From: Sipunculus nudus
Lineage: Eukaryota > Annelida > Sipuncula > Golfingiida > Sipunculidae
Assembly: GCA_026874595.1 (NCBI GenBank)
Contig: CM049308.1
Span: forward strand, 93,983,624-94,047,623
Direction of reading: 5' to 3'
Length of the DNA stretch: 64,000 nucleotides
Part shown: one piece after another, positions 10,788-52,143 of the stretch
Position numbering within the stretch: position 1 is the stretch's first letter
How the letters are laid out: each line of letters starts with the position of its first letter
Notes under the pieces: model-generated
Told to the model about the DNA's origin: nothing
The model's database searches: none
What the model saw: only the letters and a program-made list of their open reading frames with translations
Made by a program: the position numbers and the translations under genes

Positions 10788-10868
10788 GCTCCATGGCAAC
10801 AGAACCATCCAGAGACAGAGATCCTGACGGGTTTCTTCTGTCACCTTCATAAATTGTCCGCCAGGGGG
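10788..10868 (-). promoter_or_regulatory. SECIS element of SelL copy A
   Basis: The minus-strand RNA can fold into a eukaryotic SECIS, the 3' signal that recruits SBP2/eEFSec and recodes UGA as selenocysteine. The 5' quartet strand is AUGA at 10850-10847 and the 3' quartet strand is GGAU at 10810-10807. The apical A-run (AAA) is at 10834-10832, exactly 12 nt after the AUGA. The upper helix pairs GACAGA with TCTGTC plus A-U, G-C and G-U next to the quartet, with one bulged U. The lower helix pairs TGGCG with TGCCA-type sequence (one G-U) and ACA with TGT, followed by an internal loop. Copy B has the same fold with compensatory changes (44314-44392). An open frame crosses this region (about 10898-10695) but is not needed to explain it. 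Confidence 0.88.
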
Positions 10869-11213
10869 CATCACAGTCTGCCGACACAGTTTCTTCATAT
10901 TTCAGGTTTCTGTGGGTGTGGAGACTTGATATGAAATCTTAACCTTAAATTTCAAACTCAGTTTTAATTAAAATGTACAGTATTATGTATATTGTATAAA
11001 GAACCAAAGTAAAAAAAAAATAATGAAAATAAATAGTTGGTGTAAAAGAACATCAGATCTCAATGTACATAAATTAGGCCTGAGTTTATTTGTGCTGATT
11101 AATTTCAATTAAGAGATCATTAAAAGAAAAATATATTACAAAGTACATATACTGTTGATGTTACTTAAATGCAGTATACTCTGTCCTAGTATGAATAAAT
11201 ATTCATCCGTGAA

Positions 11214-12243
11214 ATCCCTCGTAACCTTTCTGTCTCGTCTAATTCCTCGTAACCTTTCTGTCTCGTCTAATCCCTCGTAACCTTTCTGTCTCGTCTAATC
11301 CCTCGTAACCTTTCTGTCTCGACTAATCCCTCGTAACCTTTCTGTCTCGTCTAATCCCTCGTAACCTTTCTGTCTCGTCTAATCCCTCGTAACCTTTCTG
11401 TCTCGTCTAATCCCTCGTAACCTTTCTGTCTCGTCTAATCCCTCGTAACATTTCTGTCTCGTCTAATCCCTCGTAACCTTTCTGTCTCGTCTAATCCCTC
11501 GTAACCTTTCTGTCTCGTCTAATCCCTCGTAACCTTTCTGTCTCGTCTAATCCCTCGTAACCTTTCTGTCTCGTCTAATCCCTCGTAACCTTTCTGTCTC
11601 GTCTAATCCCTCGTAACCTTTTTGTCTCGTCTAATCCCTCTTAACCTTTCTGTCTCGTCTAATCCCTCGTAACCTTTCTGTCTTGTCTAATCCCTCGTAA
11701 CCTTTCTGTCTCGTCTAATCCCTCGTAACCTTTCTGTCTCGTCTAATCCCTCGTAACCTTTCTGTCTCGTCTAATCCCTCGTAACATTTCTGTCTCGTCT
11801 AATCCCTCGTAACCTTTCTGTCTCGTCTAATCCCTCATAACCTTTCTGCTCGTCTAATCCCTCGTAACCTTTCTGTCTCGTCTTATCCCTCGTAACCTTT
11901 CTGTCTCGTCTAATCCCTCGTAACCTTTCTGTCTCGTCTTATCCCTCGTAACCTTTCTGTCTCGTCTAATCCCTCGTAACCTTTCTGTCTCGTCTAATCC
12001 CTCGTAACCTTTCTGTCTCGTCTAATCCCTCGTAACCTTTCTGTCTCGTGTAATCCCTCGTAACCTGTCTGTCTCGTCTAATCCCTCGTAACCTTTCTGT
12101 CTCGTCTAATCCCTCGTAACCTTTCTGTCTCGTCTAATCCCTCGTAACCTTTCTGTCTCGTCTCATCCCTCGTAACCTTTCTGTCTCGTCTAATCCCTCG
12201 TAACCTTTCTGTCTCGTCTAATCCCTCGTAACCTTTCTGTCTT
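11214..12243. repeat. 28-bp minisatellite, about 37 units
   Basis: Near-perfect head-to-tail units of 28 bp containing 'ctcgtaacctttctgtctcg' followed by 'tctaatcc'. It lies between the last coding exon of SelL copy A (ends 12366) and its SECIS (10788-10868). It is therefore either in a 3'UTR intron or in the 3'UTR itself. Confidence 0.97.
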
Positions 12244-12365
12244 GCGCAGAGACTAAGGCATGTCTTCTAATATATTATTTGTCAAACCCAGAGGAACTAA
12301 CAGACTATTTTGAGGATCCATCTGTTGTAAAAAGCCTGAGTTTTAACTTTATGGACACATGCCTT

Positions 12366-15300
12366 TTATTTGAACCGTCTTAAGGTCTGAAGCATTTGAT
12401 CAATGCTCGGGTGATCTCGGGCATTTTTGCAGCGATGTACCATCAACAGCTTTCCGTCGTGTCCCAGGATGAAGTCACCACCCAGCTAAAAAAATATGAT
12501 CACTGCTGTACAGCTTGTCAAAGTCACATTTAATTGTTTGATAGAATACTTACATTTGCATATAGACGGATAAGTGTCGTTAATATCCTATTCTTTCTTT
12601 ATGTTAACGTTTTCTAAGAATTTCAAGGCTAGCCACTTGATACTAGAAGACATGCAGTATGTATTAGTATGTTTTGTATGTGATGTGTATAAGTATGTGT
12701 GCCATGTGTTTATTTCTTTGTTTTTTAATTGGGTCGTATTTGGATGGCAGTGGATATCGAGTGAAAAGGATATTCATTAAAGCTCTTGTGCTATTTATAC
12801 GATTCAAATGGAAATAAATATGTTAAAACCAAAGTCATTGTTACCCCAGCTGACTGTAAGTCATCTGAGTTACAGTGATATTCAACCGTCCTTGTATTCC
12901 CGGAAACCTTTGATATAAATAGATATGGGGACAATCTCGTGATAACGCAAAATTAGGACAAAATGAGTTGACTGGAAAATCTTTTAGTCAGATTTTAGTC
13001 AAATTTTTCGTAGATTTCTAAATTGCTCCTGAAATGTTTTTCAAATTTTATATCTTAAAACTGAAAAGTTTTTAATTAGAACTTATCCATTTTAAGTTCA
13101 ATCTCAATATTTCACTAATTAATAGTTGGATTGCCATGAAATTTGCTTTGAAGTTTGATCTTGTTGTATATGAGATTTGAGTGGCAAACCAAACACCGAT
13201 ATACATGGAGATATACCTATAAAACACTACATCAACTTTACTCACCTGGTGAGGGTCGTCCCTCAGGTCTTTGTAGGGCTTCATCACGTGACCGGTTGTC
13301 AGTGTCCAAGATGCCCGGGACTTCAGCGAATTCGTGCACCAAACCTGTTTCACATGAATAAATTCTGACGCAGAGTCCGGAATTTTATGATTATTTGTAG
13401 GTTATTGCGGCCTTAGCACGGATTTTTTTATGTTGGCGGGACGAATATTTAGAGATATATGTCAAAGAATCGAAAGTCTATTTTTATCTTTGTTTTTACA
13501 ATTTTTTTTTCAAGAAACAAAACCCGATTTTTTCATGGTCTTTTGTCACGTCTTCCTCTAGACAGATTGTTCTTAGTTTTAAACATCATTTATACAGACA
13601 GTATAAATCGTAACATATGACATTATATTTAAGATTCTAGGATACATAAAAGCTTTAATAACTGAAGCATAGAAGCGTCATTTATAACCTCATATGCATG
13701 GAGATAGAGAGAGAGAGAGAGAGAGGCAGAGACAGACAGCGAAAAGGCTTTGCATTTTACTCTAGATGCATTATTTTTCTAGATATGTTCAATATTTATA
13801 TTTAAGAATTATATTTTATAATGATAAAAGCCTTTCACATATATAATTGGCATGTATTTTTTATTTTGAACTTACTTGATCAAAATTCCTCTTCAAGTGG
13901 AAAAACCGATAAAGCTGCATGTAATCAAACAATATAAAAGATTGGTGTTAGGATTTTGTTTTGGTCTATGCATACAGTTTTTGTGCACTAAGACACTGGT
14001 GTATATGGCTCAATGAGATTGAAATCCAAAAATTAAACGTTAAACCTGATAATAATATTAATTATATTAATTATATATATAATTATATATATTGATATAA
14101 TTAAATCAAAACGTTATCAAAATTTGAAAAATGGGAAATACTTAGGTCAGAATGCCTATGTCAGAATATTTCAACTTACCATGATATTACTTTCTTAGAG
14201 AAAATGCAAACATTTGTCATAAAAATTCATGTGCAGAAGTTATTGAATTTTATAAATACAAATTAGGTATGTTCGCTCTTTTATTCTCTGTGTTCAACTG
14301 GATCTACACCCCTATGCAACAAGGGACCCATGGGTCACGGCGCTCAGCTGATCATGATTGGACTATAAATGTATCACAGTTGTGATACTATATTGAGTAG
14401 ATACAGCTTAGAATATCATGGTCATGTTGGGCTTTTTTAAAGGAATATAATGTAATATGTGAGTAAATGATATATGAAATAACCTGACTGATGGATTAAT
14501 ATGGAGTAAAATATAGTGGTTTATTTTTTATTTATTTGGGAGGGGTCGAAAAAAGCAATTTATTTGAGCAAATATGAATGCAATAACAGTATGCTTAGCA
14601 GTGGTATAATGATGATAAGGCTATTTGTTGAAGGATCTATAGTGTATGGAAAACTGCAAGAGTTCAATTTGACAGATACAATGTTATGATTAACCATGCT
14701 GATAAGGGGATTTATGAATTTGTTACTGTATGACATAATATCTTGACAAGATCGGTCTTGACAAGGTGCATTATTTTGATGCCCCTCACGTCTACATTTT
14801 ACACAATATTGACATAATTTCTGGCATGTACATAGGTACCTAGGGACAAATGGTCAACAGTACTGAACCACCTGGAAGGTTAAAATCTTAAAAATATGAT
14901 GAAATGTAGATAATGTTTGAGAGAAAGAGGTAATCTGGGCCATGGTTGGTTTATATGATTGAAGAAAATGTTGCAAATAATATTTGAGACCTGACCATGC
15001 CTTTCCACTGGTTACCTTTTTGATAAGCTGTTGACAGTTCAACAGTTTACACATTTGTCTGATGAGATCCAATTTATTTGGTAAACCTTTTTTATCAATT
15101 TTATGATATGTATACAGTTGCCATAACGTCCCCATTCCACAGGTGCAATGACTTGATGGGGGGGGGGGGGGGGGGTTGTGTTATGATCAGAGTTACAATG
15201 CCCCTGTCTCTCTGTAGATATTTTCTTTAATTATTAAATTTTATGCTATAGCCATAGAACTATTGTTCACAGTGCCAAGGAGCAAAGCCTCAGTGGGATG

Positions 15301-15688
15301 AAGAAGGGGATGGTGAGAGTTACAACACCCTTGCATATACATACAGGATATGAAATTTAATTCAACAGTGCTTATAAAAAAAAGTTTATTCATGAACTTT
15401 AAATATTTAAAACAGACAGAAAGATGGAGAATCAAAGCAAATAATTTTTTCCCCATTCTACTGAGTCAAGAAAAAATTAACAATATTTGCATTTATTCCT
15501 TTTTTTCATTACATAATTTTAATCCAAGTTTCCAAAATGTTACTATAAATTAACAGTATAACATACATGTAATTGTGAATATTTCAGTTGATTCACATTT
15601 CTAAATTGCATCAACATTTTTAGCTAATGTATCTAGTTTATAGTACCTGTCAACAGAATGGGATGGAGGGAGGAAGGGAGGCAATTAG

Positions 15689-15741
<53 letters not shown>

Positions 15742-18432: not shown

Positions 18433-18486
<54 letters not shown>

Positions 18487-21400
18487 TTACCTTCCTCTCC
18501 TCGTCCATCACCATCTTCATGCTGCAACCTGTATCCCTCATCCACTCTAACGCCCCCTCACGCCACCCATGTGTAACCACTATCACATGACCTCCAGCAG
18601 CCTCGATTTCAGCCTAATGAGCATGATATAAAATCTTTATGATATATATATATATATTTATATTTTTATATATCATATTATATTTCTTATCTTCTGATTC
18701 AATATAAACTCTCATGATGATATTAGTCCCTGTCCACGTCAGATTCAGCTTTTTTCAAGCTGTTTTGTTAATTGTTTTATACCGGCAATTGTAAACGTCA
18801 GAAGTCAGGTAATTCATACTTATCTAGGGTGAGGGTTGAGGGGTGCATGAGCTCTGCAACACCCCCTCCTTTAGATACGCCCCCTATATTCTAAAAAGAG
18901 TCTAACCATCTTCAATCTTAATGGACAAGCGGAATATCCATCATTTATCCAAAATGTCCCATAATGTTTATTTTGAAGAGACCACTGTCCATCACTAGAC
19001 TGTGAATGTTAGACTATGTAAATAGTTTGGTGTTGTATATTTCTACCTGCTGTTTCTGGACCTGCGTTACATGGCGACGTCATGGGGGTCAGGCAAAGTG
19101 ACGTAAGAGGATTAGAACCAGTTTCCTCGTGGCCAGTTCGTCGCCCAGGCGAACCTGATCTCCAGTTCTGACGTCAGACAAGACAGTATCGACTGGTCCC
19201 AGGTCTCCTACCACGGGAACCTCTCCGGGAAACGGCAGACTGATGCTCTCATTTACTGTTTTTAAGAATCTGTTCCAAATTTCCTGAAAACAGTTAATCC
19301 AACACGTTAGTGGTAGTATTAGCGGTGCACCGGCGGTATATCGCTATACAAATTCAAGTATCGTTAGATATTCTTGTATCGATACGCTGGCAATGCGTGT
19401 AGTTGTTAATCCGATGTACAAGTGATATCAGACATTTAAAATACTCTCGGCGTGATATGAGACGTGAAATGTCAGTCTGAATCCAATTAAAAGGCATCTG
19501 ATTGTCAGATCGTTTGGACAGAGTACTCGTGCTTCATAATACGGAGATCAACCCTCTTCACTCGATTGGCAGTTAACCTTCTATATAGGCTGTGGTATAA
19601 AGATTCTTAAGTTTTAGTGGGTTAAATTTCTTGACTAATTCCTATGGGCTTTTAGGCCTTTATTTATTGTTGAAGAGGATGAATATTTGTATAGAGAGTA
19701 CTACATTCGTATGGAGGTACATTTTCACATTATGAGTCAACAAGAAGTGAGATTTAAAACATTGTGTAATGTGTAACATGCCTATAAAGGACATTAATCG
19801 TTGATATAATATCCATGTATGCTGACAGATGATCATGCATTACCTCAGTTCAAAGCCAATAAACCCCAACAACGCAGATGTTAAAGGCTGCATATACACC
19901 GCGGTAATGTAAATAAGACCCTTGAGTGCTAATAAATCAAATGTAAATACTTTTCACACCACCTGGCAATTAAAGGGTCAAGACCTCATTTTGTGCATAA
20001 CTTTGACTTACAGATGCACAGAGCCTCGGGCAATAAAGTTTATATATTTAATTTAAAATTGCAGTAAAACGTAAGCTGTACGAATATATAACACCTATAG
20101 CTACTTCCTTTTTCACTGGGTATCCAAGGTATTGTTATGTATTCGGTATGTAAAACAAGAAATCATTTCAGCACATTTTTCATCTTCACGAATTGGCACT
20201 GGTTATGTTATATTGATATGGCACATACCCTTGTGGAGCACACTGATCGACATAACAATAAACAAGTCGTATGTCATTTATGCTCTGGGACATGTTCCGG
20301 TGACTGTTCCGTAGTTTTAGTTGTTATTCATTTATACACAAGGTTGACCGTGTTGTGATATATGTGTTTAAATTTTGGGTTTTTTTTCTTGAAGTAACTC
20401 GTGCATTGGGTAAAGAAGCAATCACTCGCCTTCTTTCTCACCTCCCGGGTTATGTCAAATGGCAGCGATGGCCGCCGTTTTCTTACTTATCTCTGCGTTA
20501 ATATTTTTCAGAAAATCTCAACCAACGTCAGTCAGCATGAAAACTAAGATTCTTACCACCAAACGACTTAAGTCAACTTTTCTCAACAAACACGACATCT
20601 GTTGTCAACGACTGATGCAAAGTGTTTGGGTCGGGCTTTTTCCCCACGAAGAACAATCGTATTTGTTATAATTTTTCCAGTGTTCAATGTGAATATCATT
20701 ATCTTTTTAAATGTGAGCTTCCAGTCGGAGTCTCTAGCATGCGTGTCCTGTTTCTTTTAAAAAGACCCGGCCCACGAGGCCTCTGACTGCAGCACTCATC
20801 GAAAAGGCGAATTCACCTCCGCCCGTAATTGAAATTCAAATTTATGTTGTTAGATTAAAATTAATTGGTCATTCCTCAGACGATTTTACTTGATTTTCAG
20901 TTATACATAAAATCTGACCTCTTTTTCCAGTAGTTCTTCATTGAAAAGGCGAATTCACCTCCGCCCGTAATTGAAATTCAAATTATGTGGTTAGATTGAA
21001 ATTAATTGGTCATTCCTTAGACGATTTTACTTGATTTTCAGTTATACATTAAATCTGACCTCTTTTCTCAGTAGCTCTTCAAACTTCGCCTGAACTTCTG
21101 AATTTCTGTTTACAAGAAAAAATAAACAAAGTACCAGAATAAATTAAAAACAAAACACACCAATATAAATGTCATAAATAAACTGTAACATGCGAGTATG
21201 CTGTCGTTTGATAGTTTAAATTTACATTGATCTGACATGGAGCAAAAAACGGTGTCCGTATATATCCACTGGTGCTTGGTGATTTCTCAGAATAATAAAC
21301 AAAAAATAAAAATGAAAATACTAAAGCATTTAGCTGTAGTCTATGATTATAAGAGGTTAAAATAGCATTTGATTTGTAATTGCACGTAATATATTTGTTT

Positions 21401-24400
21401 CTATGACATGATGACCATTAAGGTCCAGCATGCCTTGCTCGTGTACCTACAGGAATTGCTTCTTGCAGATGTTCTCCATTTCTTCCCGCGTTCCGACGCC
21501 AAGACTGCGTGCGCAAAAAAAATAATTAAAAGTAGAAAATAGACGGAATCAATGTTTCAATATTCAAAGTAAATTCAAAGGGTGACCGTAAAAAAGTTTG
21601 TCAATTAATTTAACTGCATTTACATTTTAAAAATCACACTAAATGCAGAAATTTAAAAGAATGATTCATAAACTTTAATTATGCTGTGATTTTCACACAC
21701 ACTTAAAATATTATAAATAGGTCTCTGACGTATCTTAGCTACCTTTTGAAGCAATCAGCGTAAGCTGTGATCATTGTTACCATGCAACTGTACTTTGAAC
21801 TTGAGAATTCTTCCACGGATTCTGAAAAAAATATATATATTGCTAATTATTTTGGTAATAAATCTGTGATTAATTATGTAATATCTACAATATATTCGAA
21901 TGACATAATTAACTTGCTCCAAAGTATGTTAATCACCGCTCGCAACACAACCTATGTTTAGGCTCCGTGTTTGTCGGAGGCAGGTTAGTATAGAAGCAAG
22001 TCTAGAGGAAAAAAATTCCATCGGAAAACTACATACAGATACTGACTATTAGGGTAATACATTGAAAGGGAAAAGTAATGCACGCGTTGTCGAGATATGA
22101 AATCTATTAATCACAATCGTGGTAGTTTGAAGAATATCCACAGAACCACATCAGGTCTGTCAAAGGTTAAGACATACAGAAAAAAGTCGTCCACAGAACC
22201 ACATCGGGTCTGTCAAAGGTTAAGACATACAGAAAAAAAGTCGTCCACAGAACCACATCAGGTCTGTCAAAGGTTAAGACAAACAGAAAAAAAGTCGTCC
22301 ACAGAACCACATCGGGTCTGTCTAAGGTTAAGACATACAGAAAAAAGTCGTCCACAGAACCACATCAGGTCTGTCAAAGGTTAAGACATACAGAAAAAGT
22401 CGTCCACAGAACAACATCAGGTCTGTCAAAGGTTAAGGCATACAGAAAAAAATTGGCCACAGAACCACATCAGGTCATTCAAAGGTTAAGACATACAGAA
22501 ATGAGTCGTCCACAGAACCACATCGGGTCTGTCAAAGGTTAAGGCATACAGAAAAAAGTCGTCCACAGAACCACATCAGGTCTGTCAAAGGTTAAGACAT
22601 ACAGAAAAAAAGTCGTCCGCAGAACAACATCTAGTCTGTCAAAGGTTAAGACATACAGAAAAAAAGTGGTCCGCAGAACCACATCAGGTCTGTCAAAGAT
22701 TAAGACATACAGAAAAAAGTCGTCCACAGAACCACATCAGGTCTGTCAAAGGTTAAGGCATACAGAAAAAAAGTCGTCCACAGAACCACATCAGGTCTGT
22801 CAAAGGTTAAGACATACAGAAAAAAAGTCGTTCATTGAACCACATCAGGTCTGTCAAAGGTTAAAACATACAGAAAAAAGTCGTCCACAGAACCACATCA
22901 GGTCTGTCAAAGGTTAAGACATACAGAAAAAAGTCGTTCACAGATTCACATCAGGTCTGTCAAAGGTTAAGACATACAGAAAAAAAGTCGTCCACAGAAC
23001 CACATCAGGTCTGTCAAAGGTTAAGACATACAGAAAAAAATTGTCCACAGAACCACATCAGGTCTGTCAAAGGTTAAGACATACAGAAAAAAGTCGTCCA
23101 CAGATTCACATCAGGTCTGTCAAAGGTTAAGACATACAGAAAAAAAGTCGTCCACAGAACCACATCAGGTCTGTCAAAGGTTAAGACATACAGAAAAAAG
23201 TCGTCCACAGAACCACATCAGGTCTGTCAAAGGTTAAGACATACAGAAAAAAGTCGTTCGCAGATTCAAATCAGGTCTGTCAAGGGTTAAGACATACAGA
23301 AAAAAGTCGTCCACAGAACCACATCAGGTCTGTCAAAGGTTAAGACATACAGAAAAAAGTCGTCCACAGAACCACATCAGGTCTGTCAAAGGTTAAGACA
23401 TACAGAAAAAAGTCGTCCACAGATTCACATCAGGTCTGTCAAAGGTTAAGACATACAGAAAAAAAGTCGTCCGCAGAACCACATCAGGTCTGTCAAAGGT
23501 TAAGACATACAGAAAAAAAGTCGTCCACAGAACCACATCAGGTCTGTCAAAGGTTAAAACATACAGAAAAAAAGTCGTCCACAGAACCACATCGGGTCTG
23601 TCAAAGGTTAAGACATACAGAAAAAAGGTCGTCCACAGAACCACATCAAGTCTGTCAAAGGTTAAGACATACAGAAAAAAAGTCGTCCGCAGAACCACAT
23701 CGGGTCTGTCAAAGGTTAAGACATACAGAAAAAAGGTCGTCCACAGAACCACATCAAGTCTGTCAAAGGTTAAGACATACAGAAAAAAAGTCGTCCGCAG
23801 AACCACATCGGGTCTGTCAAAGTTTAAGACATACAGAAAAAAAGTCGTCCACAGAACCACATCAGGTCTGTCAAAGGTTAAGACATACAGAAAAAAGTCG
23901 TCCACAGAACCACATCAGGTCTGTCAAAGGTTAGGGCATACAGAAAAAAGTCGTCCACAGAACCACATCAGGTCTGTCTAGGGTTAAGGCATACAGAAAA
24001 AGTCGTCGACAGAACCACATCAGGTCTGTCAAAGGTTAAGGCATACAGAAAAAAGTCGTTCATTGAACCACATCAGGTCTGTCAAAGGTTAAGACATACA
24101 GAAAAAAGTCGTTCATTGAACCACATCAGGTCTGTCAAAGGTTAAGACATACAGAAAAAAGTCGTTCATTGAACTACATCAGGTCTGTCAAAGGTTAAGA
24201 CATACAGAAAAAAGTCGTTCATTGAACCACATCAGGTCTGTCAAAGGTTAAGACATACAGAAAAAAGTCGTCCACAGAACCACATCAGGTCTGTCAAAGG
24301 TTAAGACATACAGAAAAAAGTCGTTCATTGAACCACATCAGGTCTGTCAAAGGTTAAGACATACAGAAAAAAAGTCGTCCACAGAACCACATCAGGTCTG

Positions 24401-34988: not shown

Positions 34989-34990
<2 letters not shown>

Positions 34991-35615: not shown

Positions 35616-35743
35616 TTCAACATCGCAAGTAATTACATCATCGTATAGATACGTGACTTGCTTATATTTCAAAAGATTACATACAAAGTATATATTATAA
35701 ACTTATTTATTTTACATGGATTGTACAAACAGTTATTATAACT

Positions 35744-37085: not shown

Positions 37086-37089
37086 GTTA

Positions 37090-37260
37090 CTACACTGTAA
37101 ACATAGGGTTGTCAAATCGACAACTTTAGGGTTGTAAAATTGGGTGTACCTAAAACAACAACCCAGGTTGTCAAAATTTCAATTTGACAACTCTCTAGGG
37201 TTGTAAAAAGGGTTGTCAAATGTTTGCTGTGACAACCTATGAGTTGTCATGGACTTGTCA
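37090..37260. repeat. Short element rich in GTTGTC/GACAAC inverted motifs
   Basis: Begins near 'tacactgtaaa', a terminus common in animal MITE-like elements. It then carries many copies of GGTTGT(C/A)AAA and its complement TTTGACAAC in both orientations, so the strand could fold into several hairpins. It may be a small non-autonomous element. No ends or target-site duplication could be fixed. Confidence 0.35.
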
Positions 37261-37286
37261 GGTTCATCCGTATTCACTTTTTCTCT

Positions 37287-38979
<1,693 letters not shown>

Positions 38980-39000
38980 CCCCCCCCCCCCCCCCTACTT

Positions 39001-42000
39001 TACAAATTTCAACTTACCGAACTTGACTGTCACACAGAAGACATACACTATGTGGTTCATTGTTTAGAAATTTCGACACAGCTAAAGTATTAAAATTAGT
39101 GCCTGTTCTTAACAAATTACTCACTTTTCAGAAACAGCAATTTATACAATTCACCTACTTACCGAACTTGACTGTCACACAGAAGACATACACTATGTGG
39201 TTCATTGTTTAGAAATTTCGACACAGCTAAAGTATTAAAATTAGTGCCTGTTCTTAACAAATTACTCACTTTTCAGAAACAGCAATTTATACAATTCACC
39301 TACTTACCGAACTTGACTGTCACACAGAAGACATACACTATGTGGTTCATTGTTTAGAAATTTCGACACAGCTAAAGTATTAAAATTAGTGCCTGTTCTT
39401 AACAAATTACTCACTTTTCAGAAACAGCAATTTATACAATTCACCTACTTACCGAACTTGACTGTCACACAGAAGACATACACTATGTGGTTCATTGTTT
39501 AGAAATTTCGACACAGCTAAAGTATTAAAATTAGTGCCTGTTCTTAACAAATTACTCACTTTTCAGAAACAGCAATTTATACAATTCACCTACTTACCGA
39601 ACTTGACTGTCACACAGAAGACATACACTATGTGGTTCATTGTTTAGAAATTTCGACACAGCTAAAGTATTAAAATTAGTGCCTGTTCTTAACAAATTAC
39701 TCACTTTTCAGAAACAGCAATTTATACAATTCACCTACTTACCGAACTTGACTGTCACACAGAAGACATACACTATGTGGTTCATTGTTTAGAAATTTCG
39801 ACACAGCTAAAGTATTAAAATTAGTGCCTGTTCTTAACAAATTACTCACTTTTCAGAAACAGCAATTTATACAATTCACCTACTTACCGAACTTGACTGT
39901 CACACAGAAGACATACACTATGTGGTTCATTGTTTAGAAATTTCGACACAGCTAAAGTATTAAAATTAGTGCCTGTTCTTAACAAATTACTCACTTTTCA
40001 GAAACAGCAATTTATACAATTCACCTACTTACCGAACTTGACTGTCACACAGAAGACATACACTATGTGGTTCATTGTTTAGAAATTTCGACACAGCTAA
40101 AGTATTAAAATTAGTGCCTGTTCTTAACAAATTACTCACTTTTCAGAAACAGCAATTTATACAATTCACCTACTTACCGAACTTGACTGTCACACAGAAG
40201 ACATACACTATGTGGTTCATTGTTTAGAAATTTCGACACAGCTAAAGTATTAAAATTAGTGCCTGTTCTTAACAAATTACTCACTTTTCAGAAACAGCAA
40301 TTTATACAATTCACCTACTTACCGAACTTGACTGTCACACAGAAGACATACACTATGTGGTTCATTGTTTAGAAATTTCGACACAGCTAAAGTATTAAAA
40401 TTAGTGCCTGTTCTTAACAAATTACTCACTTTTCAGAAACAGCAATTTATACAATTCACCTACTTACCGAACTTGACTGTCACACAGAAGACATACACTA
40501 TGTGATTCATTGTTTAGAAATTTCGACACAGCTAAAGTATTAAAATTAGTGCCTGTTCTTAACAAATTACTCACTTTTCAGAAACAGCAATTTATACAAT
40601 TCACCTACTTACCGAACTTGACTGTCACACAGAAGACATACACTATGTGGTTCATTGTTTAGAAATTTCGACACAGCTAAAGTATTAAAATTAGTGCCTG
40701 TTCTTAACAAATTACTCACTTTTCAGAAACAGCAATTCATACAATTCACCTACTTACCGAACTTGACTGTCACACAGAAGACATACACTATGTGGTTCAT
40801 TGTTTAGAAATTTCGACACAGCTAAAGTATTAAAATTAGTGCCTGTTCTTAACAAATTACTCACTGTTCAGAAACAGCAATTTATACAATTCACCTACTT
40901 ACCGAACTTGACTGTCACGCAGAAGACATACACTATGTGGTTCATTGTTTAGAAATTTCGACACAGCTAAAGTATTAAAATTAGTGCCTGTTCTTAACAA
41001 ATAACTCACTTTTCAGAAACAGCAATTTATACAATTCACCTACTTACCGAACTTGACTGTCACGCAGAAGACATACACTATGTGGTTCATTGCTTAGAAA
41101 TTTCGACACAGCTAAAGTATTAAAATTAGTGCCTGTTCTTAACAAATTACTCACTTTTCAGAAACAGCAATTTATACAATTCACCTACTTACCGAACTTG
41201 ACTGTCACGCAGAAGACATACACTATGTGGTTCATTGTTTAGAAATTTCGACACAGCTAAAGTATTAAAATTAGTGCCTGTTCTTAACAAATTACTCACT
41301 TTTCAGAAACAGCAATTTATACAATTCACCTACTTACCGAACTTGACTGTCACACAGAAGACATACACTATGTGGTTCATTGTTTAGAAATTTCGACACA
41401 GCTAAAGTATTAAAATTAGTGCCTGTTCTTAACAAATTACTCACTTTTCAGAAACAGCAATTTATACAATTCACCTACTTACCGAACTTGACTGTCACAC
41501 AGAAGACATACACTATGTGGTTCATTGTTTAGAAATTTCGACACAGCTAAAGTATTAAAATTAGTGCCTGTTCTTAACAAATTACTCACTTTTCAAAAAC
41601 AGCAATTTATACAATTCACCTACTTACCGAACTTGACTGTCACACAGAAGACATACACTATGTGGTTCATTGTTTAGAAATTTCGACACAGCTAAAGTAT
41701 TAAAATTAGTGCCTGTTCTTAACAAATTACTCACTTTTCAGAAACAGCAATTTATACAATTCACCTACTTACCGAACTTGACTGTCACACAGAAGACATA
41801 CACTATGTGGTTCATTGTTTAGAAATTTTGACACAGCTAAAGTATTAAAATTAGTGCCTGTTCTTAACAAATTACTCACTTTTCAGAAACAGCAATTTAT
41901 ACAATTCACCTACTTACCGAACTTGACTGTCACACAGAAGACATACACTATGTGGTTCATTGTTTAGAAATTTCGACACAGCTAAAGTATTAAAATTAGT

Positions 42001-42497
42001 GCCTGTTCTTAACAAATTACTCACTTTTCAGAAACAGCAATTTATACAATTCACCTACTTACCGAACTTGACTGTCACACAGAAGACATACACTATGTGG
42101 TTCATTGTTTAGAAATTTCGACACAGCTAAAGTATTAAAATTAGTGCCTGTTCTTAACAAATTACTCACTTTTCAGAAACAGCAATTTATACAATTCACC
42201 TACTTACCGAACTTGACTGTCACACAGAAGACATACACTATGTGGTTCATTGTTTAGAAATTTCGACACAGCTAAAGTATTAAAATTAGTGCCTGTTCTT
42301 AACAAATTACTCACTTTTCAGAAACAGCAATTTATACAATTCACCTACTTACCGAACTTGACTGTCACACAGAAGACATACACTATGTGGTTCATTGTTT
42401 AGAAATTTCGACACAGCTAAAGTATTAAAATTAGTGCCTGTTCTTAACAAATTACTCACTTTTCAGAAACAGCAATTTATACAATTCACCTACTCAC
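39001..42497. repeat. 145-bp tandem array, 24 nearly identical units
   Basis: Units start every 145 bp; the tag 'accgaacttgactgtcac' falls at 39016, 39161, 39306 ... 42351. Only a few single-base differences are visible across 3.5 kb (for example cacac/cacgc, gattcat, aaaaacagc), so expansion or homogenisation was recent. On the minus strand every unit carries TTTAG/CTGTGTCG and, 64 nt later, TTCG/GTAAGTAG. That is a possible acceptor-donor pair around a frame open in one register (VSKFLNNEPHSVCLLCDSQV). The array ends at the donor of the candidate exon 42608-42498. Confidence 0.97.
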
Positions 42498-42608
42498 CGG
42501 CCGACTTGACTGGCTATAACTCGACAGTACTTTCAATATACGATGCACTGCAATCGCTTGGGCAGGGACGACGACGATGATTGTTGTGAAGACTGCAAAA
42601 CGACCCAT
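42498..42608 (-). CDS. Candidate first exon with signal-peptide-like start
   Basis: Minus-strand ATG followed by 37 codons (MGRFAVFTTIIVVVPAQAIA ...) with a hydrophobic N-terminus. It ends in phase 0 at a good donor (CCG/GTGAGT). The sequence around this donor (gacttgactgg ... cacctactcac) is homologous to the donor-like edge of each 145-bp unit. No family is recognised and no following coding exon could be joined, so this may be a small secreted-protein exon, a relic, or chance. Confidence 0.25.
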
Positions 42609-43140
42609 ACTGACTTATACTATCACATGCTGAACTAATGTTACACCGACACACATATATGTGAAGTTGTTCCCGGTCATCCGTCCGTCAACTGAGTGAA
42701 TGCAAACAAAACGTATTTTGCCTTATTTTCAGATATCTACTCATTAAACGAACAGCTTTTGATTTTGATAGGTTTGGTAGTTTTTGTTATGCACATACTT
42801 CTAATATTATTCGCATATATTCATACTGGCCAGTTTCTAAGAGAATTAGCTGTTATGGTTATGTGGCATTTTAAAGGCTCTAACACGGATCTCGTCATAT
42901 GTGTCCTTTCTGCACTGAAATGTACATGTTATATGGCACCTTTTAGGCTTTTACAGTAGAAAGTTGATTAAACCAAGCGAAAATAGCACAGTCATGTCCT
43001 GTTAAATCTGCCAAGTTATTTACGTCACAGGTAGGCTATAGGCCAGATATTTATAACTTTTTTAGTTAAACACTTGACAGTTGATTCCGTGAGATCATAT
43101 GCCTTCAGATTGTTAAGTTGCGTCGTGATGAATCCCCCCC
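42609..43140. other. AT-rich intergenic DNA
   Basis: A plus-strand open frame (42696-42959) with Leu/Ile/Val-rich stretches lies here. It has no family motif and no splice or promoter support, so it is not called as a gene. Confidence 0.4.
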
Positions 43141-43142
43141 CT

Positions 43143-43143
43143 A

Positions 43144-43187
<44 letters not shown>
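43143..43187. repeat. (CT)n-(CA)n compound microsatellite
   Basis: A CT run followed by a CA run, 45 bp in all. Confidence 0.95.
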
Positions 43188-43286
43188 TCACAAGTTAAGA
43201 CTGTTCCAACAGTACGAGGATTTATTAATTTTATCAGATTAACTTCAGAACTCATCTGGAATATCAAGTTAACTAAAACTATGTCG

Positions 43287-43736
43287 TCGTCACTATAAAT
43301 AAAGTACCAGCTGTACTCGTCACTATAAATAAAGTACCAGCTGTATTCGTCACTATAAATAAAGTACCAGCTGTACTCGTCACTATAAATAAAGTACCAG
43401 CTGTACTCGTCACTATAAATAAAGTACCAGCTGTACTCGTCACTATAAATAAAGTACCAGCTGTACTCGTCACTATAAATAAAGTACCAGCTGTACTCGT
43501 CACTATAAATAAAGTACCAGCTGTACTCGTCACTATAAATAAAGTACCAGCTGTACTCGTCACTATAAATAAAGTACCAGCTGTACTCGTCACTATAAAT
43601 AAAGTACCAGCTGTACTCGTCACTATAAATAAAGTACCAGCTGTACTCGTCACTATAAATAAAGTACCAGCTGTACTCGTCACTATAAATAAAGTACCAG
43701 CTGTAGTCGTCACTATAAATAAAGTACCAGCTGTAC
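43287..43736. repeat. 30-bp minisatellite, 15 units
   Basis: Fifteen nearly perfect 30-bp units with 'cgtcactataaataaagtac' and 'cagctgtact'. The unit length is a multiple of three, so one minus-strand frame stays open for 154 codons (repeating STAGTLFIVT). There is no promoter or unique flank to support translation. A 15-nt G run follows at 43764-43778. Confidence 0.97.
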
Positions 43737-43779
43737 TTGGCACAAGAACACGTAAGCGTGGGAGGGGGGGGGGGGGGGC

Positions 43780-44240
43780 ATCACACAGACATTATAGACC
43801 TATGATCAATGTCATACGTGTCTATTTACACAGACGGCTGGAGGACAAGAATATTTTGTTTTAATGAAAATTATCGATGTCGTATGTAAACAATGTCATA
43901 AACCATGAGTGACACAATTCCCATGAATTATATCGTCATCAGTAGGCCTGGATGTAAAGAGTTATGAGCAATAGTTCATTAACACTTGGGAAAAGTAATG
44001 CATATCACACCCGTCATGCATGTAACGTTTTGCAAGACAACGAATCGCTCTGTATCAAATTAAAGACGGGGATCATAGTTGTTGTTTTTTTTATATATAT
44101 ATATACACAATGCAGTTCCGAAGAAGGATCCATTTTTATGATAAAACTGAGAAACAATTTAGCTGTGTCTATGATGCATCAGACATAACCTTATTACACG
44201 TTATTTCTCGTCCTTGAAGGTCATATATTCATATAACATG
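43780..44240. other. Spacer downstream of SelL copy B
   Basis: No supported gene. The 3' end of the copy B transcript should lie near or within this stretch. No canonical AATAAA was found close to the SECIS; a TATAAA variant is present on the minus strand at about 44263-44258. Confidence 0.4.
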
Positions 44241-44313
44241 TCACTACAAAGTTTTTTTTATATAGTATTGATAATGTCTCGTTGACATGACAACCGAAAC
44301 TGCAGACATGAAG

Positions 44314-44392
44314 CTCCATGACGACAGGACCATCCAGCGACAGAGCTCCTGTCGGTTTTCTTCTGTCATCTTCATAAACTGTCCACCAGGGA
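44314..44392 (-). promoter_or_regulatory. SECIS element of SelL copy B
   Basis: Same SECIS layout as copy A. AUGA is at 44375-44372 and the apical A-run (AAAA) at 44359-44356, again 12 nt after the quartet. GGAU is at 44335-44332, with 36 nt between the two quartet strands as in copy A. The upper helix keeps GACAGA/TCTGTC. The lower helix pairs TGGTG with CGTCA (through G-U pairs) and ACAG with CTGT, where copy A has TGGCG/TGCCA. The helix is thus kept while the sequence changes. It begins about 20 nt after the stop codon, in the last exon, as expected for a 3'UTR SECIS. Confidence 0.9.
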
Positions 44393-44410
44393 GCATCACA
44401 GTCTGCTGAC

Positions 44411-47400
44411 TCAGTTCTTCTGCCTCTGTATAGAAAGAGTCAAAGCAGTTGTCCTTCAATTTTAATCGAAGTCACCTCGCTGTTGCGTCTTAACAACCTG
44501 TAAAAAATATTAAAATATCAGTAGATGTAAGAAATATTGCAATAATTACTTATAGGTCACAACTCATATACATGTGAGCCACTTCTGCAGAAAGTGATCG
44601 TTTGTGACATCACAATATGAAATCTTAAACACATAAAACAAAAGTAAAGTAGCCCTGTCATGTCAATATAGGCCCTACAGCTCTATAATACACTCCACCC
44701 GGTGGTTTACCTTAAATACAGTGGTCCTGTAATGTCAATATACAGCTCTGTAATACACGCAACCTTGTGGTTTACCTTAAGTACAGTGGCCCCGTCATGT
44801 CAATATACATTTCTGGAATCCACGCAACCCCGTGGTTTACCTTAAGTACAGTGACCTTGTCATATCATTATACAGCTCTGTAATACACACAACCCGGTGG
44901 TTAACCTAAAGTACATTTGCCCTGTCATGTCATTATACAGCTCTTTAATAAACACAACCCGGTGGTTTACCTAAAGTACAGTAGCCCTGTCATGTAAAAT
45001 ACAGCTCTAAAATACACACAACCCAGTGGTTACCTTTTTTAGCGCATGTAGTATCTGTTCTACGTCAGGACGGTCAGATGCGGTTTTACTGGCGTGCACC
45101 ATCAGTAATGTTCCATCACGGTCCACGATGAAATCTCCTCCCATCTACCGATAGAGTAAAACAAGAATCAGAATGACGTTATCAGGATGACCACAGCTCC
45201 ATTCACATGTTGATTTAAGAGCTGAGTGCCTAGTGCCTTAAAACTGGACACTCCATATTGTCCATGGACTAGGCACTCCATATTGTCCATGGACTGGACA
45301 CTCCATATTGTCCATGGACTCGACACTCCATATTGTCCATGGACTAGGCACTCCATATTGTCCATGGACTGGACACTCCATATTATCCATGGACTGGACA
45401 CTTCACATTATCCATTGACTGGACATTCCAATTTGTCTATGGACTGGACACTCCATATTGTCCATGGACTGGACACTCGATATTGTCCATTGACTGGTTA
45501 AGTATTTTATCCGACTGTTCGGGCGCACTATATGCTTGTACTTTTTCATACAATCAGAGGTAATATTAATCATATTGTTACAGCCAAGCACAGAACATTG
45601 AAAACTGACGATTTATTTTCGTATTTTACATGGATACATCCAGCATACACTCTGTAAGAAATAATTGTTGAATTAATCAAATATTCTACATGGGATGAAT
45701 TGATATGCACCTTTAACACGAATCAGACAGATTAACAAGTCGCTAGGGTGGCACCATTATGGTTTGTGATATCTGTGTTTACATATAAACATTAGGATAC
45801 TGAGTCTCGTCCTGTCTTTCTTACTACTCCAAATCCGCTACCGACTTTATGAATATTTCGCCAGAGACTACTACTGATTCTGTGCACGAAATATGGGTAA
45901 AAGTTAGTTTTCCATGTTAAACTCACTTGATGCGGGTCGTCCTTAATGTTTTTATACGGTTTGAGTAATTGATCACCAGATGACACCACCGACGCATAGA
46001 TCATGAGTTGGTCAATCCCCCAGGCCTGTTGTATAAAATAAACATATACATGAAAGTCAGATACGTCAGTACAGGCCCGAAGGGAATAAGAAAAAGGCTT
46101 TGACTCCCAATTATTGATGAAGATACCAAGTTAACAATGTGTTACGTGGTGACATAAAAGTGGACCGAACTGTCTCGCTGGTGAAGCTTGCTTTTCTAGT
46201 GAAGATGTTGGAATGCCTGATATGTGCACCACCGACATGGGTTCAAATCCCGGATCGGCCCAATATTTTCCCCTGAGCAAGTTGTCTTCGTGACAAATGG
46301 AATTAACTAAATATCCTACTGGGTAATTCCTATAGCCTTCCCATGGGGTTCATAGTCCAAGCTGACACATCACATGCCCTACGGAATGCAAATCGCTCTA
46401 AACTGATCTCATGAATACATGAGCTGTGCAATTTTGTTCCAAGTTTAAGAGGCCAAGGTGAACCCTTGTAGTATAAATCTTGAGAAACAACGACTTTTTT
46501 TTTTAAAACAAACGGACCCGAATACTTAGTGTAGGTCACTAACATATGAAGTCGCTGGCCTTATAAAAAAGCTATTACTTACAGCTGCGAATTTCCTCTT
46601 CAAGTTGAAAAACGTATAGAGCTGTAAAAACAAGTGTATAACTAAAACACTTCAATAGATGATGTTCATGCCGTACATGAAGTTGCAATAATCGACTGAT
46701 ATTCTTTTAGAGGAAATATTTGTGTTATGGGTGTTCAAGTAAGGCAATAAAAGGGAACACCTAACATGATTTGTTTGTCCGTATTTATAAGTATAAGCTG
46801 AGTGTCTAGATTAAATTCCGTTAGCCAGATTTTACACGTAATAAGAGTACAGAGAGTGCAGGCTAATGTCATAATTATACATGTGTAATTTGTGTACAGT
46901 CAACTTTTTAATTATCATATTTTGTCATGCGATATATGTTTGAGCAAAATAATATGCCCACCTGGTTTAATTTAGCTACTACTTGAATCCGATGTGAAAT
47001 GCATTGGCTTAAACCATTTGAAATCATTATTTTTTTAACATAATCGAACAACTTAATGTCTACCTTTCTTTCTTCATCAGTAACCATCTGAAAGCTGCAT
47101 CCTGTGTCCTTTATCCACTGTAACGCACCTTCACGCGGCCCAAACGTAACCACCATCACGTGACCTCCAGCAGCCTCGATTTCAGCCTGAAAGTTAAAGA
47201 ATATATATATGAGTGCTCCGAACATTATCACCATCGTGTCACCTCGGTCAGTTTCGTTGCCAGGGTGATAGGTAAGAAAATATTTCAACTACAAATGTAA
47301 TAACAGTCAAGAAACCTTGCATTACCTTTCAGAATTCTTTCTGCACTGACATATCTAAAGTTTCCTGTCTCTCTATACAACTCAGCCACAGGCATGGTTG

Positions 47401-50400
47401 TGGTTTGGGTTGTTACAAACGCGTGAATAAAATCAAAGGAATGGTCCTAGAACACCTCACAAGGCACTATTAACCATATAATGTGATGTTTTAAAATACC
47501 TAGTATACGCGGCTTCAGGCTGATTGCCTATCTAGCCTATTTCTGCCAACGCATTGCTGTGAAATAATATTACATTTTATTTTATTTATGAAATTACAAA
47601 TATCTTATAAATAGATAATATTATACTTAACTTACATTTTCTTATATATAGAAAAGGTTTAAAATTATGTACACCTTTTAAAATATTTGTAACAATTTAT
47701 TTCTGTTTTATTTCTGATTTATGTAACTTAAACTTATTGAGGTTATATATCGAGTCTGTGATTATCTTGTCTGTAAATGGATCTGCATGTTTGATATTTT
47801 TTCTTTGCTTTATAAGATTTACTATGTGTTTCTATGCTGATGTTTTGCTGTGATATATAAAGGACATTTTCTGTGATAAAAAAAGGCTTCCTATTGAGTC
47901 AACTTCTTAATTTTTATAATAATGGATTTCTATGAATATGTATTTGTATATAACATCTAATGATAAGACATTCCGTTCAGCATCCTGATCTAATTAGGAC
48001 CACTGTGGAAATAGTAAACTTAGTAAACTTTTTAGTGCTATCCCAGGTGCGTTTCAGGATGCATGTTTTTTTGGGGGGGGGTACATGTTGTTACCTGAAT
48101 AACATAAATCAATCATGCATATAAACTGGCTGTAAACTAAGTTGTTTGTTCATGCTTCACTCGCCTACTTGTCATAATTAAATGTACAGTGTACAGAAGT
48201 ATATTATACTGTCTTACAGATATGATTGGATGTTACTTTAAAAAAACTGCTGAAATATTGCTGATGGTTTGAACGATTCAAGATGAAAAGAAATCTTGTA
48301 CATTTAATATATTGTTGTAAATTCTATACGGTTTCGATAGACGGCGAACAATTTGTATGGGTGCGTGTGTGGGTGTGCGTGTCTGCGTAGGATAATGACT
48401 GTTGTATGTGGCAGCCCATTTCAAAGTCTTGTTATATCAACAGTGTAAAGAAACCAACATTATCCAGAATATATTCTTTATGTATTTTATGGATGAAGTA
48501 TATTTAGATAAGATGTGATTTAAGGGGACACGCAACATTTCTAGAGCAGATGGTTTCGTTGAACACCCATACTATGGGACACCTCTATGAAGCAAGTAGA
48601 ATCAAACTGTGAACAAGTTTTAGTTGTGGACATCAATTTTTATACATATCGGGTATTTTCAAAAGCGAGTAACTACAGCAGGTACATCAGGATTGCTTGT
48701 CTGTCAACGAAAGAATATGTGTATTTACTTTAATTTTTTTTATCCTTACATAAAAGCCAAGAACCTCGTGAACAATACTTATCACAATTCACAACATCCA
48801 AACAAGACAGTAGTTTGACGCACACATCTTGCATGGCTTTCTCGTGCACAAGACTGGTAACGCCATCTACGATCATTTTGCGTGACGTTCGTTCGTTCAT
48901 CTATTTTGAGTGAAAATCATACAGATTTCATGTTCATTCATCTTTATTACCAGTATCCACAGAACATGATCTGTGACACCACCTTGGACCATGTGTATGA
49001 TGAGGGACCAGAAGACAAATAAGGTCACTTTAAAAGGTACGTGGTATTGCAAATTTCTGGGAATACTTTAATTGGCATCTCTGATTTCAGGAACTGGGAC
49101 CTGACGTCAGTAAACACACGCGATGCCTTCCATAGTGTAAGATAAGTCGGATATACGTGTCTACAGCTCGTATTCTAGTTTGTATGGTACAGATTAACTG
49201 GTCTGCTGTATTTCAACAAGAGATAAAATCAGCGCTGCCGCCGACCTGCATTCGACACCAACCGTCTTCATAACAACCATTGGTATAAGAATCAGCTGGT
49301 GCCACTAGCGTTGAAACAATCAGCACTGTACATTCCTGAAGGATGTTCAACGAATGTTCTACCAATTTTCTGTCTTCCGTCTGTTACTTTTAGAAGGACC
49401 GTAAGGCCTGAACTGAGAAATGAAGAATACAGACAGAACCGGGACTTCTCAGCCACAAGGACAACCTAGTCCTTCATCTGCGACAGACCGGAAAAGTTAT
49501 TTGTGGAAGGTGATGAACCACTTCATTAATTTGATGCTTTATTATGCATGATTTGTTGGTTGGACTTTTGAATTATAGAGCTATGCCTGTGCTTAGCTCA
49601 AAACAACTTGAAAATCTGAAATGAAAACAAAAAGCATTCAAAATTTTCCTAGGATACTTTAATCCTATCGACATTTTTAACATTCTGAATATATTAACAA
49701 AGGCACATACTCGCCGTTCCTGGATCTGTATCACGTGATCACGTCATGGTTTTCATGCGAACTTGCGTAACAGAATGAGGACAAGTTTTCTGGTTCCCAG
49801 ACCGTCACCAACACGGAGTGGTTCCCCTGTCCTTGCATCTGTCACCATGACATTAACAGGACCCCTGTCTCCGATAAAACGCTCCATTTCTGGATGATCA
49901 GGAAGGATGCTCCCATCTACAGTCTCCAGGAAGCTGCTCCACATTTCCTGGAAGTCAACAAAGTTCACAGTTATAGTTCGTAGTCTTCGCTTGTAGCTAT
50001 GTCCGGAATCAAGTAGTCCAGTTGTCAGACAGTATATATTAATATAGCATCCACCTGATTTAAATACACCCTCTCGCTGTCATAACATGCTGCGACATAG
50101 AGATTAGAAAAAACTTGTTATCCTTATTCTTTTATCGATCTTTTTGTTAAGAGAAATCTAAACACTTAATTTCATTGGTTAATGTATCTTGTCGATTTAT
50201 CAAGGGACTTCCGTGAACACATGAATGCTTCTGGAATTGCTGTGGAGAATAATAGACCGACCAACTGTACCACATTCGTGTAAAACGTTCATTTAAACCT
50301 TTAGATACTAGCTCAGAGTAAACGGAAAGTAAAGAAATTAAAAGGGTCAGCTGACCTCTTGTCCTGTCAGTTCTTCAAAACATTCTCGAACTTCTGAATT

Positions 50401-52143
50401 CCTATAATAAAGAGAAGCATATAACAGTTTTAGCAACAAGTTAAACATGAATTTCAGAATGTGTGTTTGTTACCTTATCAAAACTGTTCAGTGTAGGCAT
50501 ACTCAGAGATGTTACATTCTGTCATGTAAAAATAATAAAATATGAATCTCTAACATTCTTACGGTAAATCTCAAACGTCATGCTTGCTCATATTTAAATA
50601 TATTTATACACATCCACACACGGTTATAATTTTGTGCTCTCTTTTAAAAAAGTGTAATGCTAAATCTATGAATGTTAACCAAGCCATTAACAATTCGAAC
50701 ACATGCCCACCTGAACTGCTGCTTACATATGTCATCCAGGTCCTTCCTTGTTGTGACTCCAAGACTAAAAAGCACTCAAAAATCAAGCATAATACACAAC
50801 ACAAAAACAATGGGTGCTCGCATGGTGAAGAATAATGTGCATGCCCGCGTGTTTCAAGGATGCCACGGCAATATTAAAAATATTAACAATTTTAATATAT
50901 CCTTTACTGTCAGTAATACACATATATCGCTTATAAACCGCACTGAAAGCATTTTTCCGTGAAATGTTTGTTAGTCTAGAACAGATTCCATCAGGATTCA
51001 ATCAAAACCTATACTACAGCCAAGGAGGTTATGAGTCTCGTGACAACATAATAAGTCATACCTACTAATGATCTGTCCTTAATTATTTATATTTTACCTG
51101 TTAAACCCCTGAACGTAGACGTCTATCATCCGAGCCAGACAACTGTACTTAGAGTCAACAAAATCCTCCTGGGATTCTGAAATATATTACACCAGCTGAT
51201 GAACCCGGTTACCAGGCCTTTTATCGGGTTTGGGGGTATACATTGAATGGGATGAATAATTTTGGCTCAATTATTTTTTTTTAATTCTGAAAATTAAAAC
51301 AAAATATAGATTTTCAGTGGGATACTCTATACAAATTTGTTTATGTTTTTGTGGCTATGCCTATGAGGCTTGATATTCATACATCGGTGTGTTCACTTTG
51401 AAGACCGGAACCGGAATAGGACACGGGGGCATTCAAAGTTTAGAAGATCTTTGACTGGTTACATATATTATTATTGTAAGACGTATAAAGGATATATTGA
51501 TTTAAGGAAGATATGAAAGATGACTTAAATTCCTAAAGAAAGAACCGGGAATACGCATGCCCTGTTTGTCACAGAAGTGGAACCAAGGGGATCCAGGAGG
51601 TCCGGACGTCCCCCTCCCCCTTTTTTTAAGGTTTTCAGACCGGACCGTTGGAACTTTTTTTTTTTTTAGTTTTTGTATTGCTTAAATATTGTACTAAAGG
51701 TGGGAAACTACTCAAATTAAGGAATAATTTTGTTAGATGGAGCTTGCGATCCAACACCATTATCAAAACTCGAGTCTTTCTGCGTGTATTGTTGAATGAC
51801 AAGCTTCCCAGTTTTTTAGATAACATAGTAAAATTAAAAAAATGAATCATGAAATGAAGACGGTAGTAACACGGAAAAAAAAAACATTTTCACATAGACC
51901 TGTACTCTATATACACAACATGGACAGCCCTCTGAAATGACGGAATAATGTAAATTATACTTGTACGATAAAGATAGAGAGACATATATGAAGCTTACTG
52001 CATGTTTCACATGATGCACTTTAAAACGGCCATACTCCATGGGACCTACCTTCGAAGTGTCCTTTTGCTTCTTTGAGAGTGGCGTCCAAACTTCGATAGA
52101 CAGTGGTCAGGGCCGCCACCAAATGCCCTGTGTCCACCTCCAT
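44411..52143 (-). CDS. SELENOL: Selenoprotein L-like peroxiredoxin-fold protein, copy B (10 exons)
   Basis: Second SelL-type gene, same strand and order as copy A. Exons: 52143-52050, 51176-51098, 50764-50711, 50401-50356, 49947-49711, 47186-47064, 46621-46583, 46025-45927, 45144-45034, 44425-44411 (then 3'UTR with SECIS). All introns are GT-AG. The product is about 298 aa, from MEVDTGHLVAALTTVYRSL to ...HALKKRQKN and TGA. The thioredoxin-fold part has TRKLVLILLRKFA, U156-K-P-U159, AEIEAAGGHVMVVTFG, DTGCSFQMVTDEERK, LYTFFNLKRK and MGGDFIVDRDGTLLMVH. Exons 1-8 equal those of copy A in length, yet for example exon 6 differs at 9 of 41 residues. The likely role is a selenium-dependent thiol/diselenide oxidoreductase; no signal peptide is evident, so cytosolic location is inferred. 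The terminal TGA (44413-44411) is an ordinary stop in this model; whether the nearby SECIS lets it be read through is unknown, but the frame beyond it is not conserved. Introns are short compared with copy A. Confidence 0.9.
44648..45033. repeat. Degenerate 64-70-bp tandem repeat at the start of intron 9, copy B
   Basis: About six units marked by 'ccctgtcatgtcaatatac' like sequence (about 44655, 44727, 44791, 44855, 44922, 44987) followed by 'acacaacccggtggtttacc'. The last unit ends in 'ggttacc', which is the GTAACC donor of exon 9 itself (45033-45028). Each unit therefore carries a copy of the donor region, mostly mutated to GGTAAACC or GGTTAACC. Confidence 0.85.
45241..45497. repeat. 25-bp minisatellite in intron 8, copy B
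   Basis: About ten units of 25 bp with 'ctccatattgtccatggact' plus ggaca/aggca. Each unit contains the short palindrome 'gtccatggac'. Open frames on both strands over it are repeat artefacts. Confidence 0.95.
46150..46330 (+). mobile_element. Possible tRNA-derived SINE relic
   Basis: A perfect Pol III box B (GGTTCAAATCC) at 46240-46250 is followed by 'cggatcggccc' and 'cccctgagcaag'. A weak box A-like stretch (tgtctcgctgg) lies about 70 nt upstream, further than in a normal tRNA gene. It lies in intron 7 of SelL copy B. It is not a functional tRNA as far as I can fold it. Confidence 0.35.
47187..49710 (-). other. Intron 5 of SelL copy B
   Basis: AT-rich intron between the UxxU exon and exon 6. 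A 9-nt G run lies near 48073. I see no independent gene; a short plus-strand coding-like peptide near 48955-49020 has no further support. Confidence 0.5.
49711..49947 (-). CDS. SELENOL: SelL copy B exon 5: the UxxU exon
   Basis: 237 nt, 79 codons, same length and phase as copy A exon 5. The acceptor is CTTCCAG before 49947 and the donor is GTATGT after 49711. The frame reads EMWSSFLETVDGS ... TRKLVLILLRKFA, then TGA (49755-49753) AAA CCA TGA (49746-49744), then RDHVIQIQERR. Two in-frame TGAs nine bases apart, kept at the same place in two diverged genes with intact sequence after them, point to Sec rather than decay. A Glu/Asp-rich stretch precedes the fold (residues about 101-120). Confidence 0.92.
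52050..52143 (-). CDS. SELENOL: SelL copy B exon 1 (start exon)
   Basis: 94-nt coding part: MEVDTGHLVAALTTV, then KEAKGHFE, with the GAAG/GTAGGT donor as in copy A. A possible acceptor TATTTTAG lies about 65 nt upstream of the ATG (near 52208), which would allow a separate 5' leader exon. Confidence 0.88.

Follow-up and report, generated by a model that had tools for sequence, protein, structure and literature searches.

Our analysis of a 64-kb window of the Sipunculus nudus genome (C3:93983624-94047623 in an assembly of 1,426,538,692 bases, or 1.43 Gb, and 153 contigs; positions below refer to this whole stretch of DNA) revealed two minus-strand genes of the selenoprotein L (SelL) family, copy A at 33596-12366 and copy B from 52143 to about 44411, and a third gene, copy C, just beyond the window edge. 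An earlier note on this DNA had described eight coding exons of equal length and phase in A and B (94, 79, 54, 46, 237, 123, 39 and 99 nt). A search of each copy for exons 2-8 by length, AG acceptor, GT donor and open phase recovered them all, with a GT donor after each of the eight exons, an AG acceptor before exons 2-8 and compatible phases. The start and end positions were also reproduced, with starts at 33596 and 52143 and ends at 12366 (TAA) and 44411 (TGA). Once spliced, the frames of A and B run open from the ATG and extend into a ninth coding exon, interrupted only by TGAs at codons 156 and 159.

In copy A, exon 1 (94 nt from the ATG, with a GT donor) lies at 33503-33596, exon 2 (79 nt) at 21743-21821, exon 3 (54 nt) at 21451-21504 and exon 4 (46 nt) at 21060-21105. 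Exon 5 (237 nt, 19047-19283) encodes the motif U-P-P-U with TGAs at 19091-19089 and 19082-19080, and is followed by exon 6 (123 nt) at 18491-18613, exon 7 (39 nt) at 13876-13914, exon 8 (99 nt) at 13246-13344 and the coding end of exon 9 with its TAA at 12366-12485, all on the minus strand. Most of intron 1 is filled by a 53-nt minisatellite of about 206 copies (22137-33100). On the same strand, copy B comprises exon 1 (94 nt from the ATG, with a GT donor) at 52050-52143, exon 2 (79 nt) at 51098-51176, exon 3 (54 nt) at 50711-50764, exon 4 (46 nt) at 50356-50401, exon 5 (237 nt) at 49711-49947 with U-K-P-U and TGAs at 49755-49753 and 49746-49744, exon 6 (123 nt) at 47064-47186, exon 7 (39 nt) at 46583-46621 and exon 8 (99 nt) at 45927-46025. 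The ninth coding exon, absent from the earlier list of equal lengths, differs in length between the two genes: it has 117 nt plus the stop in A and 111 nt in B, where it reaches a GT donor without a stop (45034-45144). The C-terminus of B is uncertain because there are at least two candidate acceptors for its last exon, 44425 (the earlier model, 44411-44425, reading RQKN*) or 44497 (VVKTQQRGDFD*, to 44462). The A and B proteins are identical at 174 of 294 residues. Exon 6 is among the best conserved exons, with 9 of 41 residues differing as previously claimed, and in exon 8 the residue differs at 20 of 33 codons.

Apart from these genes, the window contains large minisatellites at 3241-10351 (82-nt unit), 11213-12242 (28 nt), 39012-42499 (145 nt) and 43287-43737 (30 nt). 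A minus-strand frame at 62543-63262 has a TatD-type DNase domain (PF01026, 130.4 bits), and retroelement-like frames with reverse transcriptase and endonuclease domains lie at 57698-59155 and 1376-2986.

Copy C was read from the 60 kb directly beyond the window and occupies C3:94075533-94058106, which corresponds to 91910 down to 74483 if the window numbering is carried rightwards. Its first eight exons match those of A and B in length, its codons 156 and 159 are TGAs (motif U-Q-P-U), and its ninth coding exon ends in TAG directly before a GT; 217 of 293 residues are identical to those of B. This TAG stands at the position of the AAG before the donor in copy B (45034), and the frame of B therefore seems, from this comparison, to have gained a C-terminal extension into its last exon. 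All three copies lie on one strand, and their exon lengths, splice sites and phases are identical. A genome search with the domain of B scored 12 candidates and gave 11 matches (E up to 1), every one of which lies at this locus and belongs to one of the three copies, and a search with its conserved 3′ block found three places, one per SelL copy; both searches score the best candidates only. The proposal of a duplicated locus with diverged paralogues thus held for the duplication and for the maintenance of both copies, but the array consists of three genes rather than two, as copy C had been outside the window.

With Cys written at the TGAs, the proteins matched the NCBIfam model NF040769 (‘SelL-related redox protein’) with 137.4 bits for A and 134.7 for B (cut-off 120), as well as the Pfam family AhpC-TSA_2 (PF13911) with 60.2 and 51 bits (cut-off 27). 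Passing the curated model, with TGAs at the positions of the redox motif, bears out the assignment to selenoprotein L. The TGA residues also align, weakly (best E 0.005), with the CxxC of solved thioredoxin-fold proteins. No protein passed among 766 candidates in a search with full-length copy A, and scans of genomic and viral contigs returned pattern matches with no relative confirmed. A profile of the two domains found 12 proteins among 428 candidates, and a wider profile found 647 among 8000 scored candidates. The best 120 of the 647 were listed, and the matches listed include records named Selenoprotein L from Chiloscyllium, Callorhinchus, Betta and Sparus. NF040769 matched all ten relatives scanned, six of them above the cut-off. 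In the N-terminal region, an ungapped alignment of 72 residues with P0001 gave 23 (A), 22 (B) and 19 (C) identities, which supports the splicing of exons 1-4.

We read 27 of the 123 retrieved relatives in full. Four have Cys at both sites (P0016, P0017, P0019, P0061), two have Trp at both (P0001, P0015) and one has Trp followed by Cys (P0026). Three begin inside the motif at M-P-C, with Cys at the second site (P0011, P0020, P0079), 14 begin downstream of the motif, and in three it is skipped or garbled (P0002, P0006, P0099). Residues other than Sec or Cys at both sites were thus confined among the 27 to the two Trp pairs, which are probably TGA read as Trp. The start of the bacterial records P0011, P0020, P0022 and P0079 at M-P-C, just inside the motif, suggests an unannotated Sec at their first site. 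Most of the relatives' records are cut at the motif, in line with the earlier statement that gene finders truncate such genes, and according to PMC12822975 fewer than 1% of genes are well annotated in Ensembl in a group to which SELENOL belongs.

Both TGAs are kept in all three copies, and the previously described motifs UPPU (A) and UKPU (B) were found again at codons 156 and 159 of the spliced frames. After the TGAs, differences between A and B are distributed over codon positions 1, 2 and 3 as 37, 33 and 72 (chi-square p = 6e-5), and the excess at third positions after the motif is seen in all three pairs (p 6e-5, 1e-5 and 2e-5). The dN/dS values (NG86) for A-B, A-C and B-C are 0.160, 0.162 and 0.244 overall, 0.180, 0.148 and 0.359 before the motif, and 0.113, 0.171 and 0.152 after it; those of A-B and A-C are rough, because dS of about 1.7-1.8 is near saturation. 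The sequence beyond the TGAs, which had been described as intact domain sequence, is therefore under purifying selection (dN/dS 0.11-0.17), with all its exons open. Given the open exons and dN/dS, we also rejected the reading of both A and B as pseudogenes.

Behind each of the three genes, and on the gene's strand, we found a match to the Rfam model SECIS_1, which goes beyond the content of the earlier note. In copy A it scores 26.9 bits at 10858-10795 within a conserved 3′ block (10759-10896, minus strand), in copy B 24.5 bits at 44383-44323 (block 44284-44420, minus strand) and in copy C 25.0 bits in a block 90% identical to that of B, all below the gathering score of 35. No Rfam family reaches its gathering score within the 64-kb window; a permissive search across all of it gave ten matches at E up to 10, of which only two are SECIS, namely those of A and B (E 0.53 and 2.4). 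When the DNA of the A and B loci was compared, the long matches were exon 1 (89.8%), exon 6 (81%) and the 138-nt 3′ block (87.7%); the remaining matches were short and of low complexity. The blocks fold into one long hairpin with z-scores of -2.33 (A) and -3.19 (B) against 200 shuffles each, and 4 of 200 and 1 of 200 shuffles, respectively, folded as well. Compensatory two-sided changes were seen at none of 44 stem pairs across the three copies. The case for these candidate SECIS elements is thus one of position, conservation and model score, not of covariation. We also considered the 3′ block as a coding exon, since it is open in one frame, and rejected this because it lies behind the stop of A, matches SECIS_1 and folds better than most shuffles. 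The element of copy A follows the stop codon at a distance of about 1.5 kb, past the 28-nt minisatellite at 11213-12242. Even without splicing, this distance is within the known range, as UGA-to-SECIS distances of 207 to 5207 nt are given for mammals in the accessible part of PMC3316567.

A genome search for tRNA-Sec returned 52 matches, three of them above the cut-off of 47 bits (80.6, 79.2 and 47.6). The 80.6- and 79.2-bit matches are tRNA-Sec with the anticodon TCA according to ARAGORN. The same loose search gives matches in all of 14 control genomes, above the cut-off in five, so that the high scores and the anticodons carry the weight. Two predicted tRNA-Sec(UCA) genes indicate that the organism decodes Sec.

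The likeness of A and B is beyond chance, as judged by exon lengths and splice sites, third-position excess, the curated family match and the SECIS-like hairpins. A tree was built with 19 relatives selected out of the 123 retrieved; A, B and C group together in it as a single clade (100/100), and it does not order the three. As far as the sampled relatives show, the duplications therefore occurred within this lineage. The tip lengths are 0.46 for A, 0.21 for B and 0.12 for C. At one position copy A carries Arg, whereas Tyr prevails among the 13 other proteins aligned. A recent segmental duplication was rejected, given that the long DNA matches between A and B are limited to exon 1, exon 6 and the 3′ block. 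Upstream of exon 1, B (52500-53000) and C share about 0.5 kb at 71%, which could be a promoter or a repeat. Several intronic stretches common to A and C resemble repeats. Within exon 1 (33503-33596 and 52050-52143), none of 14 fourfold sites differs between A and B, compared with 37 of 60 in exons 2-9, and the similarity ends about 7 nt outside the exon; either exchange between copies or constraint at the nucleotide level could underlie this identity. Which of the three copies stands apart from the other two also depends on the exon (chi-square p 1.9e-8; 0 of 5000 permutations), and exchange between copies and lineage-specific rates both fit this pattern. We make no claim of gene conversion, because three sequences without an outgroup cannot tell it from lineage-specific rates.

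Taken together, the locus is very probably a tandem array of three SelL genes in which the UGAs are read as Sec by means of SECIS elements, with the Sec pair most likely forming a diselenide. The genome sequence itself shows the exon structure of the genes, the SECIS-like hairpins, the match to the SelL family, purifying selection, the number of copies and the tRNA-Sec genes; splicing, Sec insertion, the diselenide and a redox reaction are inferred from what is known of the family. Each gene would encode a protein of about 293-296 residues, leaving the last exon of B aside, with an N-terminal region of about 110 residues common with other animal SelL, followed by a peroxiredoxin-like domain of the thioredoxin fold, in which Sec-x-x-Sec would occupy the CxxC position as UPPU (A), UKPU (B) and UQPU (C). 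After splicing of the mRNA, one SECIS hairpin at its 3′ end would, together with tRNA-Sec, direct Sec at both UGAs, and the Sec pair would most likely cycle between diselenol and diselenide in thiol or peroxide redox chemistry. Few protein families have a Sec-Sec redox pair; SelL is one of them, and little is known about what it does physiologically. We tentatively consider that the middle residues of UPPU, UKPU and UQPU and the diverged exon 8 of A might tune redox potential or partner, so that the array could hold three distinct diselenide enzymes, although we would not regard this as the likelier outcome.

One of the copies, most likely A, could instead be decaying or undecoded, so that its first TGA is a real stop yielding a truncated protein and B and C are the working SelL genes. 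Copy A has the longest branch (0.46), an exon 8 that encodes a different residue from that of B at 20 of 33 codons, and minisatellites both in intron 1 (53 nt) and between stop and SECIS (28 nt). However, its nine coding exons are open apart from the two TGAs, and comparison with B gives a dN/dS of 0.160 overall and 0.113 after the motif, with corresponding values of 0.162 and 0.171 for the comparison with C. The SECIS block of A is 88% identical to that of B and scores highest against SECIS_1 among the three copies (26.9 bits). We therefore consider decay of this copy improbable. The identity of the inserted residue can also be questioned. Trp appears at both sites in P0001 and P0015 and at the first site in P0026, as if the TGA were read as Trp or by plain readthrough. 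We regard this as extremely unlikely, since Trp is what a gene caller using code 4 writes for TGA, the TGA sites align with the CxxC of other relatives, a SECIS-like hairpin lies behind every copy, tRNA-Sec(UCA) genes are present in the genome, and many other relatives' records are cut at the motif, as expected if UGA stands there.

Even with Sec at both sites, the two residues might not bond to each other; one could be catalytic while the second is paired with the thiol of a partner or is not needed. That the two sites can differ is seen in the bacterial records P0011, P0020, P0079 and P0026, which have Cys at the second site and a first site that is missing or Trp. Both TGAs are nevertheless kept in all three copies, although A and B differ at 120 of 294 residues, and a diselenide is reported for SelL in PMC2397514 and PMC12822975, so that we consider two unbonded Sec residues unlikely. 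Under the preferred reading of a diselenide-forming SelL array, three intact and diverged copies allow diselenide motifs, and likewise three SECIS elements, to be compared in a natural setting. The array also indicates that an animal lineage can gain additional SelL copies, and the locus illustrates clearly how standard annotation tends to cut such genes short.

Among known systems, the bacterial SelL-related redox proteins (NF040769; Chloroflexota-type) have the same domain, with CLPC in P0061 and WLPC in P0026, but the N-terminal region of the animal proteins is missing from the bacterial records read. Bacteria that insert Sec rely on signals different from the eukaryotic SECIS. Members of the AhpC-TSA_2 or peroxiredoxin-like 2 family (PF13911), such as prostamide/prostaglandin F synthase, are matched by both A and B at the level of the Pfam model, and the solved prostamide synthase matches weakly (E 0.23). 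Unlike SelL, this family is distant, and the match implies neither a Sec pair nor a substrate. The closest counterpart is SelL (SELENOL) of fish and aquatic invertebrates, which has the same domain and curated model, a Sec pair with one SECIS and a similar N-terminal region. Published accounts of SelL cover fish, invertebrates and marine bacteria (PMC2397514, PMC3473315, PMC3316567), it is also listed for algae (PMC7539508), and one SECIS is reported to serve its two Sec residues, two residues apart (PMC3316567). The middle residues of the motif are PP, KP and QP here versus LP in P0001 and P0015. The main difference is in copy number: Table 1 of PMC3473315, as far as accessible, gives one SelL copy in each of five invertebrates and none in a sixth, in contrast to the three tandem copies in our array. 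A multi-copy SelL array is not announced in the SelL literature surveyed, which covers few of the subscription papers and is thus no proof of absence. The family itself was already known, and the three-gene SelL array is the new part.
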